Assembly (NCBI GenBank): GCA_017483185.1
Contig: JAFULM010000050.1
Span: 1-53,880 of the forward strand
Length of the DNA: 53,880 nt
Origin: Prevotella sp.
Lineage (GTDB): Bacteria; Bacteroidota; Bacteroidia; Bacteroidales; Bacteroidaceae
Direction: 5' to 3'
The position numbers and the translations under genes are program-made. Every line of letters starts with the position of its first letter. The first letter of the stretch is position 1. Below, in pieces: positions 1,010-38,870 of this stretch. Below the pieces are notes generated by a model. It saw only the letters and a list, made by a program, of their open reading frames with translations. It was not told the DNA's origin and did no database searches.

Positions 1010-1765
1010 ATGATGCAGGCTATGATATTCGCGGCCGGACTCGGGACACGGCTCAAACCACTGACCGACACCATGCCAAAGGCTCTTGTGTGTGTGGCAG
1101 GGCGGCCGTTGCTGGAACACACGGTGATGAGGCTGAAAGCGGCCGGCGTGGAGAGGATTGTCGTGAATGTGCATCATTTCGCTTCGCAGATAACTGATTT
1201 CCTGACGGCAAACGGCAATTTCGGGATGGACATACGTGTCAGCGACGAGACGGCCGCGCTGCTTGATACGGGCGGTGGCATACGGGCGGCTACGCCGCTG
1301 TTTGACCCGGCGTCGCCGATACTGATTCATAATGTAGATATACTGAGCAACGTTGACCTCAGCTCGTTTTATGCCGCCAACATCGCCAACGCCGCAACGC
1401 TGCTGGTCAGCAGCCGCAAGACCAGCCGCTATCTGCTTTTCGATGACGACATGCGGCTGGTCGGCTGGACGAATGTTGCCACTGGCGAGGTGCGCAGTCC
1501 TTATCCTGCCACAGTCACATCTGCTGCTCGCCGCTATGCTTTCTCTGGCATACACATCTTTTCTCCGGAGCTTTTTCCTTTGTTCGACGGGTTTCCCGAT
1601 AAGTTCGGCATCATTGATTTCTATCTCAGCGTGTGCGACAGGGTCGTGATACGCGGCTGCGTCAAGGACGACCTGCGGCTGATGGACGTCGGTAAGCTGG
1701 ACACGCTGGCAGAGGCAGAGGCGTTTGTACAGGACATACAAATATATAATAAGGATAACAAGTAG
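1010..1765 (+). CDS. Sugar-1-phosphate nucleotidyltransferase (MurU/HddC-like)
   Basis: The 251-residue cytoplasmic protein belongs to the NTP_transferase family. The N-terminal signature FAAGLGTRLKPLTDTMPKAL (residues about 7-26) binds the nucleotide, and DTGGGI near residue 87 and HNVDILSNVD near 108 are further family motifs. Members transfer a nucleotidyl group to sugar-1-phosphates; close lookalikes include MurU (N-acetylmuramate-1-phosphate uridylyltransferase) and HddC. Bacteroidota often pair such a gene with an AmgK-type kinase, but none lies beside it here, so the substrate is left open. ATGs at 1010 and 1013 are both possible. guaA follows after only 36 bases, so the two may be co-transcribed. 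Confidence 0.8.
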   Translation: MMQAMIFAAGLGTRLKPLTDTMPKALVCVAGRPLLEHTVMRLKAAGVERIVVNVHHFASQITDFLTANGNFGMDIRVSDETAALLDTGGGIRAATPLFDPASPILIHNVDILSNVDLSSFYAANIANAATLLVSSRKTSRYLLFDDDMRLVGWTNVATGEVRSPYPATVTSAARRYAFSGIHIFSPELFPLFDGFPDKFGIIDFYLSVCDRVVIRGCVKDDLRLMDVGKLDTLAEAEAFVQDIQIYNKDNK

Positions 1766-1801
1766 AATTAAGACATACACAATAATAATATATATACGAA
1801 T

Positions 1802-3484
1802 ATGCAACAGAAGATTATCATCCTCGACTTCGGTTCGCAGACCACGCAGCTCATCGGCCGCCGTGTCCGCGAGCTGGACACATTCTGCGAGATTCTTCCG
1901 TACAACAAGTTTCCGAAGGACGATCCGTCAGTGATCGGCGTGATTTTGAGCGGCTCGCCCTATTCAGTGCATGACCCTGAGGCTTTCAAGGTAGACCTGA
2001 GCCAGTTTGTCGGCCGTCTGCCCGTGCTTGGCATCTGCTACGGTGCGCAGTTCATTTCCCATACGCTTGGCGGTCGTGTCGAGAAGGCCGATTCGCGCGA
2101 GTACGGCCGTGCACACCTTCAGACGTTCAACAAGGAGAATCCGCTTTTCAAGGGCTTCACCGACAATTCACAGGTATGGATGAGCCACGGCGACACCATC
2201 ACGGCCATACCCGAAGGATTTGAGTGCATCGCCTCGACGGCAGACGTGAAGTATGCGGCATATTGGGCCTCCTCCTGCTCCCCCAAGGGGGAGGGACCTG
2301 CGGCTTGTGATTGCACTTCATCCCCCCTTGGGGGGACCGAGGGGGGCCGCCCCATCTGGGCCGTTCAGTTCCACCCCGAGGTGTTCCACACGGTGCAGGG
2401 CACACAGCTATTGAAGAATTTCGTCGTTGACATCTGCGGCTCGAAGCAGGATTGGAGCGCGGCGTCGTTTGTCGACACAACCGTTGCCGAGCTGAAAGCA
2501 CAGGTCGGTGACGACCGCGTCATCCTCGGACTCAGCGGAGGCGTCGATTCGTCGGTTGCTGCCGTGCTGCTCAACCGCGCCATCGGCAAGAACCTCACGT
2601 GTATCTTCGTCGACCACGGTATGCTGCGCAAGAACGAGTTCACCGATGTCATGCACGACTATGAGTGTCTGGGACTCAACGTTATCGGCGTCGACGCAAG
2701 CGAGAAGTTCTTCAGCGACCTCGCCGGAGTGACAGACCCCGAACAGAAGCGCAAGATAATAGGCCGCGATTTTGTCGAGGTGTTCAACGCCGAGGCACGC
2801 AAGATTACGGGTGCGAAGTGGCTGGCACAGGGAACCATCTATCCAGACCGCATCGAGTCGCTCAACATCACGGGCAAGGTCATCAAGAGCCATCACAACG
2901 TCGGAGGACTGCCCGAGGAGATGCACCTCAGTCTTTGCGAGCCGCTGAAGTGGCTCTTCAAGGACGAAGTGCGCCGCGTGGGCCGTCAGCTGGGCATGCC
3001 CGAACATCTCATCACGCGCCATCCCTTCCCCGGTCCCGGACTTGCCGTGCGTATCCTTGGCGATATCACCCGCGAAAAAGTCCGTGTCCTGCAGGATGCC
3101 GACGATATCTACATCCGCGGACTGCGCGACTACAAGGTGCGTCTCACAGGCGAAGAGGCCCGCAAGGTGTTGGCCGCAGGTGTACCGGCGTCGATGACCG
3201 ACGGTGAGATAGAGGTTTCGCTTTACGACCAGATCTGGCAGGCCGGTGCCGTGCTGCTGTCAACTGTACGTTCGGTAGGCGTGATGGGTGATGAGCGCAC
3301 ATACGAGAATCCCGTCGCCTTGCGTGCCGTGACCAGCACCGACGCCATGACGGCCGACTGGGCGCATCTGCCTTACGACTTCCTTGCTAAGGTTTCCAAC
3401 GAGATCATCAACAAGGTGCGCGGCGTGAACCGCGTCTGCTACGACATCTCGTCAAAGCCGCCATCAACGATCGAGTGGGAGTAA
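1802..3484 (+). CDS. guaA: GMP synthase (glutamine-hydrolysing) with an in-frame insertion
   Basis: GuaA converts XMP, glutamine and ATP to GMP in the cytoplasm. The class I amidotransferase domain has the nucleophile in LGICYGAQF (Cys79) and the catalytic His191 and Glu193 in VQFHPEVFH. The ATP-pyrophosphatase domain follows with LSGGVDSS, and the dimerisation domain ends in [11 protein letters not shown]. The protein has 560 residues, whereas I recall most relatives at about 505-525. Residues about 155-183 are a Ser/Pro/Gly/Cys-rich stretch between KYAAY and [10 protein letters not shown], where relatives have only a few residues; it is encoded by a palindromic GC-rich element. A second extra-looking stretch at about residues 440-475 has ordinary base composition. 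All catalytic residues are intact and the frame is open, so the enzyme is probably functional. Confidence 0.96.
2266..2348. repeat. Palindromic CTCCCCCAAGGGGGAG-type element inside guaA
   Basis: The 83 bases begin GGCCTCCTCCTG and end ACCGAGGGGGGCC. They contain two palindromes, CTCCCCCAAGGGGGAG (from 2279) and CCCCCCTTGGGGGG (from 2322), joined by about 20 bases. The two halves resemble the inverted pair of the same family at 38590-38620 and 38841-38870. The element is read through in the guaA frame. TGGGCC occurs on both sides (2264-2269 and 2357-2362, 93 bases apart, same frame), possibly a duplication made at insertion, but this is uncertain. Confidence 0.75.
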
Positions 3485-3617
3485 GAAAGTGAAGAACGAA
3501 GAGTGAAGAATGAAGAATGGGCTGGCACCGTTCCTACATTGCTATATTATGGCAGTTGGAACGGCGGCAGCCCATTCTTCATTCTTCACTTTCTTATTCT
3601 TCGTTCTTCATTTTCTT
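3483..3617. terminator. Long hairpin between convergent guaA and esterase genes
   Basis: An inverted repeat with arms at about 3483-3524 and 3568-3617 is built from repeated GAAGAATGAAGAATGGGCTG-type sequence, with one eight-base bulge. It begins at the guaA stop codon and its 3' arm overlaps the last codons of the converging hydrolase gene. It is well placed as a bidirectional terminator, though its length suggests an expanded simple repeat. Confidence 0.6.
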
Positions 3618-4426
3618 ATTTCGCTTACAATGTCGAAGCGCGTTTCTTCCGGTGCAAGGTCAACGTAGGCGTTGCGCATGTCTTCTTTCGTAATTTCAAT
3701 GTCGCGGTCAACCTCGCGCGGATTGTCCACGGTGGTGTGGAAGAAAAGCCAGTCGTAGGTCTGTTTGAGGTATAGTATGCGTGCAAGGTCGCCGTGTGAC
3801 GAGCCTTTCAGCCAATCGTAGCGCAGGAGCCGGTCGTGGCCGGAATCCTTTATGGCCTTGACGACCGTTTTCGACTGCGATACGGGTACGGCGCGGTCGG
3901 CCGTTCCGTGGAGAATCCACAGCGGGATGCGGCCCAGCCCCGAGAAGTCGCGCAGGGTGCTGCCGCCGCAGAGAGCCATCGCCGCCGCCACACGGTCGGG
4001 ATATGTCCCCGCAAAATCGAGCGTACCGTAGCCGCCGAGGCTCATGCCGATGACGTAGACGCGGGTTGTGTCGGTGTCGTGGTTCTGCTGCACCCAGTCG
4101 AGGATGCGGGCAATCTTCTGCGGACTCCATGCTCCGCCGGGATTCTGCGGTGCTATGACCATTGCCGGATAGTAGCGTCCTTTCTCGATGGCGTGGAGCA
4201 GTCCGTAGCGGCGGACGCGCTGCATGTTTTTGCCGCAGAGACTCGCTCCGTGGAGGAAGATAATGACCGGTATGCGGCGGTGCTCATGCACATATTCGCG
4301 CGGGGCGTAGAGCCAGAAGTTGTAACTGTCGGGCACGGTGCCACGCATGGCGGCCAACTGTCCGTTCTGTGCGTGAACGGCAGCTGACCATAATATGATA
4401 ATGATGAATGTCAGTAAGCGTCTCAT
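3608..4426 (-). CDS. Secreted alpha/beta hydrolase (esterase)
   Basis: The 272-residue protein starts with a signal peptide (MRRLLTFIIIILWSAAVHA) and is likely periplasmic or exported. It has the alpha/beta-hydrolase fold of the PHB-depolymerase/CE1-like esterases: oxyanion motif IIFLHGAS near 55-62, nucleophile elbow GMSLGG with Ser129, LHGTADRAVP with Asp177, and SSHGD with His211, a complete triad. This suggests a carbohydrate esterase or similar hydrolase, but the substrate cannot be read from sequence. A TATATTTG box lies about 36 bases upstream. The neighbour behind it on the same strand is another alpha/beta hydrolase, 98 bases away with its own promoter. Confidence 0.85.
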   Translation of the reverse strand: MRRLLTFIIIILWSAAVHAQNGQLAAMRGTVPDSYNFWLYAPREYVHEHRRIPVIIFLHGASLCGKNMQRVRRYGLLHAIEKGRYYPAMVIAPQNPGGAWSPQKIARILDWVQQNHDTDTTRVYVIGMSLGGYGTLDFAGTYPDRVAAAMALCGGSTLRDFSGLGRIPLWILHGTADRAVPVSQSKTVVKAIKDSGHDRLLRYDWLKGSSHGDLARILYLKQTYDWLFFHTTVDNPREVDRDIEITKEDMRNAYVDLAPEETRFDIVSEIRK

Positions 4427-38589: not shown

Positions 38590-38870
38590 GGCCCCCTCCA
38601 ACTCCCCCAAAGGGGGAGAGCCGGGGCTCCCGTAAGGGCCTTATTGCTCTCTGGCGGGGCTGCTATTGCGTTGCAACGGGGCGCTCGTTGCAACATGACG
38701 GCAGCCCCGTTGTAACCTCGTAAGGGCCTTATTGCTCGGAAAAGACCGCTTTTTGGCTCTTTTTCAGCTATCAAAAACTCGCGAACTTTTTCAAAAATGA
38801 AGAGCCGTAAGGCCCTTAGAGGGCGTTTGAAGCCACAGGCCTCTCCCCCTTGGGGGAGCCGGAGGGGGCC
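38590..38870. repeat. Inverted CTCCCCCAAAGGGGGAG pair enclosing multi-hairpin repeat copy 4
   Basis: GGCCCCCTCCAACTCCCCCA (from 38590) and its near-complement ending GGAGGGGGCC (to 38870) are about 30-base inverted arms. Between them, 38628-38735 is a fourth copy of the GC-rich multi-hairpin family (CGTAAGGGCCTTATTGCTC, GCAACGGGGCGCTCGTTGCA). This arm pair is the same kind of sequence found inside guaA. From 38091 to 39640 there is no gene I can support; the region is a series of repeats. Confidence 0.75.

Follow-up and report, generated by a model that had tools for sequence, protein, structure and literature searches.

In-frame palindromic repeats in guaA and other conserved genes of Prevotella

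The guaA locus and its empty site in near relatives

The window, a stretch of 53,880 nucleotides, comes from a Prevotella sp. assembly of 2.47 Mb in 61 contigs that is 75% complete. On its forward strand it carries guaA (1802..3484), the gene for glutamine-hydrolysing GMP synthase, which reads as 560 residues including the insert described here (translation; NCBIfam NF000848, 725 bits; PDB relatives 5tw7 and 1gpm). Within the gene, on the same strand, lies a bipartite palindromic element of 83 bases (2266..2348; GGCC...GGCC), referred to as family 1 and composed of a left half, a spacer and a right half. The left half (2266..2303) reads as 12 residues in guaA and as APSGSPKGERPA in leuS and miaB, and is frequent alone outside genes. 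It contains the C-run/G-run stem-loop CTCCCCCAAGGGGGAG (2278..2293), of which the assembly holds 17 exact copies. The right half (2315..2348) reads as 11 residues and contains a second C-run/G-run stem-loop, TCCCCCCTTGGGGGGA (2321..2336). The two halves are only imperfectly inverted relative to each other.

We observed that the guaA reading frame is open across the whole element and through both stem-loops, and that Cys79, His191 and Glu193, invariant in 25/25 aligned GuaA sequences, are retained. A sequence-only reading of this DNA had proposed exactly this, an in-frame palindromic element without stop in a gene that keeps its catalytic residues. It had further estimated 24-28 added residues: the acceptor loop, codons 155-186 (2264..2359), has 32 residues against 8 in the sister genome, a net gain of 24 codons. 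Judging by the open frame, the insert is probably translated as part of GuaA. Alignment to E. coli GuaA (1gpm, with a gap at chain residues 167-174), together with the length tolerance of the region, places the loop between E. coli residues 166 and 175, immediately before the VQFHPE strand.

The 12-bp inverted arm of the guaA element was equalled in 0/200 single-base shuffles of the loop and in 0/30 windows of equal length taken from guaA itself. The predicted RNA fold of the region reached -53.6 kcal/mol (z -1.88), and 5/200 dinucleotide shuffles were as stable; with a z of only -1.88, we took folding energy as weak evidence and did not count it as proof. An Rfam scan of 1700-3700 gave no match in the insert. 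Its four matches, all to miRNA families and all below the gathering score, fell on a long hairpin directly 3′ of guaA (3481-3619), which is made of GAAGAATGAAGAATG-type units with inverted arms. This hairpin is perhaps the guaA terminator, and in style it resembles the tandem-repeat GuaA loops of relatives described below. A non-coding, intergenic relative of the guaA element lies at 38590..38868, where two left halves in opposite orientation enclose a core of about 240 nt. Their stems, at 38604 and 38845, bear out the inverted pair that had been placed near 38590 and 38841.

Comparison with relatives, as that reading had suggested, revealed two guaA genes without the insert residues, both with the loop ASKKEPVW. 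In the nearest surveyed genome (G128), 1480/1608 guaA positions were identical, with a single gap of 72 nt; in the MAG contig CAMVUM010000006.1 (the contig behind locus L067), 1486/1608 were identical, with two gaps totalling 72 nt. The GuaA sequences of the window genome (L037) and of G128 (L177) are sisters with support 100 in a FastTree tree of 125 GuaA from which the loop columns had been removed. By eye, the element at guaA and leuS replaces several host codons, roughly 4-9. Inspection by eye of the guaA site and of three leuS sites revealed no target-site duplication; since host codons are replaced there, such a duplication could have been erased.

Dispersed copies, their reading frame and their turnover

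A 96-base query returned 69 matches in the window assembly at E up to 10, and the pattern CCCCCNNNNGGGG had 99 forward and 98 reverse occurrences genome-wide, where its reversed control had 5 and 2. Translation of 20 stretches around element matches located eight internal copies of the right half, distributed over seven genes: guaA, leuS (twice), miaB, topA, uvrA, a DegT aminotransferase gene and a helicase gene of the AAA_11/AAA_12 type. The host-genome search for elements in coding frames, which the sequence-only reading had suggested, bears that reading out: many further copies exist and several lie inside ORFs. The two leuS inserts read APSGSPKGERPVGSDNSSGTSSPFGGTEGG and APSNSPKGERPAGS... 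plus 11 residues. Two builds were found: in guaA, leuS and miaB the left half is followed by the right half, while in topA, uvrA, the DegT gene and the helicase gene an inverted, more diverged piece resembling the right half precedes the right half. The helicase insert contains additional pieces, one of which, a half, reads PPRGEDLR. Two further ORFs, one flippase-like and one AroQ-like (identities by our own reading), end in a C-terminal tail made of element sequence, and ArgC may be extended at its N-terminus by such sequence. We considered a preference for glutamine-using enzymes (GuaA, carbamoyl-phosphate synthase, glutamate synthase) and dropped it because LeuS, MiaB, TopA, UvrA and others carry inserts too.

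The halves differed in their share of coding copies. By our own count of matches with E 1e-3 or better, 11 of 12 right-half matches, on either strand, lay in coding ORFs (10 if the N-terminal ArgC copy is untranslated), against 6 of 19 left-half matches (Fisher p 0.002, several matches sitting in one insert and so not being independent). The halves often belong to a larger dispersed repeat with paired stems about 228-250 nt apart and TAAGGCCCTTA motifs (38590-38868; L005, L008, L012, L015, L021-L023, L030-L035), in which several contigs of the assembly start or stop.

The right half was read in one frame at 8/8 internal sites and also at the leuS site of the sister genome (9/9), and 5/5 internal left halves (guaA, miaB, both leuS sites and that of the sister) likewise have a single frame in common. 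Stops alone cannot force this choice, since the guaA copy and the first leuS copy each have four of six frames open. In these two copies the frame in use is free of Pro-Pro and the other open frames contain it; we infer that frame choice may reflect avoidance of polyproline stalling. The inverted first pieces of the four inserts with the second build read in different frames (SPQGG.., TPPSVP..). For family 1, element lengths divisible by three were not counted as evidence, the strings having been cut at codon ends.

Comparison of the two sister genomes showed rapid change at several sites. Both leuS inserts of the window genome are absent from G128, whose sites are empty and whose leuS carries the element elsewhere, at core position 301. 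A different repeat-like insert occupies core position 299 of leuS in genome G097 (L310), adjoining that of G128. Together with another repeat-like insert at the miaB site of G087 (L319), this indicates that shared acceptor sites are not restricted to GuaA. Both sisters have the miaB insert, which has been enlarged by tandem duplication, and the uvrA insert, whose spacer is shorter and whose right half is eroded in G128. Palindrome loss can be seen in both genes between the two sister genomes, and the miaB and uvrA frames remain open in both despite the differing insert lengths. The TopA loop is short in G128, where it resembles a remnant, and also in three other genomes. Some MiaB and LeuS matches had carried stop flags, and the six inspected were last codons or lay at the match start.

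The GuaA loop across the genus and a second repeat family

GuaA was sought in 150 genomes of the genus. Any match was obtained in 142, some of them weak matches to other proteins; 127 GuaA loci were taken from these, the remainder being without a listed strong GuaA match, and 125 were usable after leaving out L273 (partial contig) and L253 (loop missing). Eight of 110 loci fell outside the first loop pattern. The loop measured 7-9 residues in 92/125 GuaA and 12-43 in 33/125. Inverted arms of 8 or more were present in 7/33 long loops as compared with 19/990 control windows, and tandem repeats in 12/33, ten of them of period 7, as compared with 19/990; the other 16/33 had neither a strong palindrome nor a tandem. 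The period-7 tandems (L045, L048-L051, L054, L057, L063, L065, L178) lie in the coding frame of this same loop; their seven-base units must nonetheless total whole codons.

On the FastTree tree of the 125 GuaA without loop columns, at least 16 changes between long and short loops are needed; well-supported branches force only 6 of these 16, and 48/121 inner branches are open. In an independent reading, 120/126 loci had an uninterrupted frame between the N-terminal motif and QFHPE; the remaining six lacked a search motif, and no stops were seen in them. Two more sites of GuaA vary in length, at core positions 313-314 and 438-444, with repeat-like inserts.

A second repeat, family 2, is unrelated in sequence to the guaA element and occupies the same loop in L042, L055, L062 and L257, where the longest perfect arms measure 19-25 bp. 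In L042 and L055 it has perfect terminal inverted repeats of 23-24 bp, and from arm-end to arm-end it spans 117 nt in L042 and 114 nt in L055. A diverged form was found in the GuaA loop of L130, outside the survey; L120 is a repeat of L055. The four surveyed rows require 4 changes on the tree, of which 2 are forced by well-supported branches.

Family 2 is also dispersed. The pattern CTCACCCCCARCCCCTCYC matched in 7/10 genomes, with 31 matches in G059 and 20 in G072, and its reversed control gave 0 in 10/10. In 20 regions sampled from G059 and G072 we counted 23 clusters; ORFs of at least 150 aa contain 19 of them, and the other 4 have no such ORF. Among the 19, 14 were read in the frame LTP.PS...GAGGE and 5 in other frames (one mixed). 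A Pfam family was assigned to 16/17 of the ORFs, and the hosts include a carbamoyl-phosphate synthase ORF (two copies), an AMP-binding/condensation protein, and GH31 and DPP-IV proteins. In the single-contig genome G117, 6/6 matches lay in ORFs of at least 120 aa; four of the six had Pfam support and a non-N-terminal copy (glutamate synthase, an ABC permease, a GH2 protein and a CHC2 zinc-finger protein), 2 of these 4 in an alternative frame.

Thus related species fill the same GuaA loop with unrelated repeats, which, as far as open frames tell, shows repeat DNA feeding what would be new peptide into core proteins.

Known relatives, origin and meaning of the coding repeats

Rickettsia palindromic elements are presented, in PMC10969869, PMC4316617 and PMC3733652, as short palindromic repeats of several families that occur in frame within ORFs as well as between genes. 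The likeness in kind that had been proposed from the guaA element holds with respect to these descriptions: the Prevotella repeats likewise form several families, lie within an essential gene and others as well as between genes, stand in frame without stops in hosts that remain conserved, and have empty sites at guaA and leuS. They differ in belonging to another phylum and in placing unrelated families in one acceptor loop, and the two systems are likened by description, not by sequence. Similarly, Di Nocera et al. 2013 (PMC3733652) describe intragenic GTAG/CGTC REPs whose dimers or groups encode 20-30 residues in ORFs, among them uvrA and genes for RNA helicases and tRNA synthetases, and report that recB was struck at a nearly equal site in two Xanthomonas species. 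The Prevotella hosts also include uvrA, a helicase and a tRNA synthetase gene. These REPs are defined by a GTAG or CGTC tag at an end of the stem. Neither tetramer nor its complement is present in the guaA element or the L055 element; membership in these REPs was therefore rejected, and the Prevotella element was not filed under them though working like them. A Y1 transposase (RAYT) was rejected as the mover: one Y1 gene was found in the 75%-complete genome, and its 3285-base locus contained neither repeat.

Bacterial MITEs with coding capacity, reviewed in PMC10969869 and including the enterobacterial RU elements (PMC2759123), resemble family 2, which is multi-copy and has a short core between terminal inverted arms of 19-25 bp. 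The Prevotella repeats depart from them in that neither a parent IS nor a target-site duplication was found and most sampled copies are in ORFs (19/23). The statement that no described Bacteroidota equivalent was known calls for caution. Nothing on coding palindromes of this kind in Prevotella or Bacteroides was found in the open-licence papers searched; PMC3733652, however, lists CGTC-type REPs for Bacteroidetes, and for other phyla it reports REPs that lie inside genes. New are the lineage, the several families, the one shared acceptor loop, the frame bias and the quick turnover; the kind itself is known.

The repeats are dispersed, have empty sites, stand in frame in conserved genes, and are inherited and decay. 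We propose, at a probability of roughly 0.78, that palindromic repeats spread in genomes of the Prevotella group and that a copy persists, as a translated passenger, where the loop tolerates it and its frame does no harm. The spread itself is shown by copy number and empty sites. Copies would be inserted by some enzyme or by recombination; where one falls in a tolerant loop and its frame reads as a hydrophilic Ser/Pro/Gly/Lys/Glu linker, the enzyme would keep working and the copy persist, while landings elsewhere would be lost through selection. The GuaA stretch just before the catalytic His191 strand would be such a tolerant site, filled repeatedly by unrelated repeats, and inserts would change length in frame and shed their palindromes over time. 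The guaA insert itself most likely has little catalytic effect and would be a tolerated, translated passenger supplying new linker sequence.

A stronger version would make these palindromes a coding-adapted class, in which selection on the peptide, and not on DNA alone, shapes the element. The right half would live nearly always inside genes and give a stop-free hydrophilic linker in one frame, and the composites would be copied time and again into the same enzyme loops; as the first piece is inverted or in another frame in 4/8 inserts, we hold this version doubtful, if worth keeping in mind. Improbable, in our view, is that the composite is a coding-adapted module, copied from gene to gene as a flexible linker, that benefits the host through its peptide or hairpin: the coding bias and constant frame of the right half agree with it, the bias being subject to the non-independence given above, but neutrality fits the patchiness between the sisters, the decay of older copies and the use of one loop by unrelated repeats, and the first piece stands in a different frame in those 4/8 inserts. 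Ordinary loop divergence, in which drift and growth by slippage leave palindromes as a by-product, is quite improbable as the general account. It may well hold for other long loops, given the 12/33 with tandems and the 16/33 of neither type, but for the palindromic loops it is contradicted by the dispersal of the 30-40-nt halves elsewhere in the genome, by the perfect terminal repeats of L042 and L055 and by the empty sites in near relatives.

Ribosome bypass has precedents in T4 gene 60 and the mitochondrial byp elements. The stable hairpin and the position of inserts in essential enzymes near conserved sites would suit an insert that is present in the gene and absent from the protein, through bypass or RNA processing; such a fate would not require a frame. 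The surveyed loops showed no stop, however (120/126 loci followed throughout, the other 6 lacking a search motif), guaA differs by 72 nt from its empty counterpart, and both genomes have open miaB and uvrA frames despite length differences, all of which makes it highly improbable. An artefact of metagenome binning, to which a window genome in 61 contigs at 75% completeness and named relatives that are mostly MAGs could lend colour, is scarcely credible in view of similar events in many assemblies and in the single-contig G117, the open frames, and the miaB and uvrA inserts common to the sister genome.

On the reading that we prefer, of spreading repeats retained as translated passengers, coding palindromes, best known from Rickettsia and Proteobacteria, are now found across a common, non-endosymbiotic lineage. 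In practice, core enzymes vary in length there, which annotators may misread. With empty, shared and eroded copies together, selfish DNA turning into protein linker can be followed, and one can ask which frames, loops and peptides pass selection.
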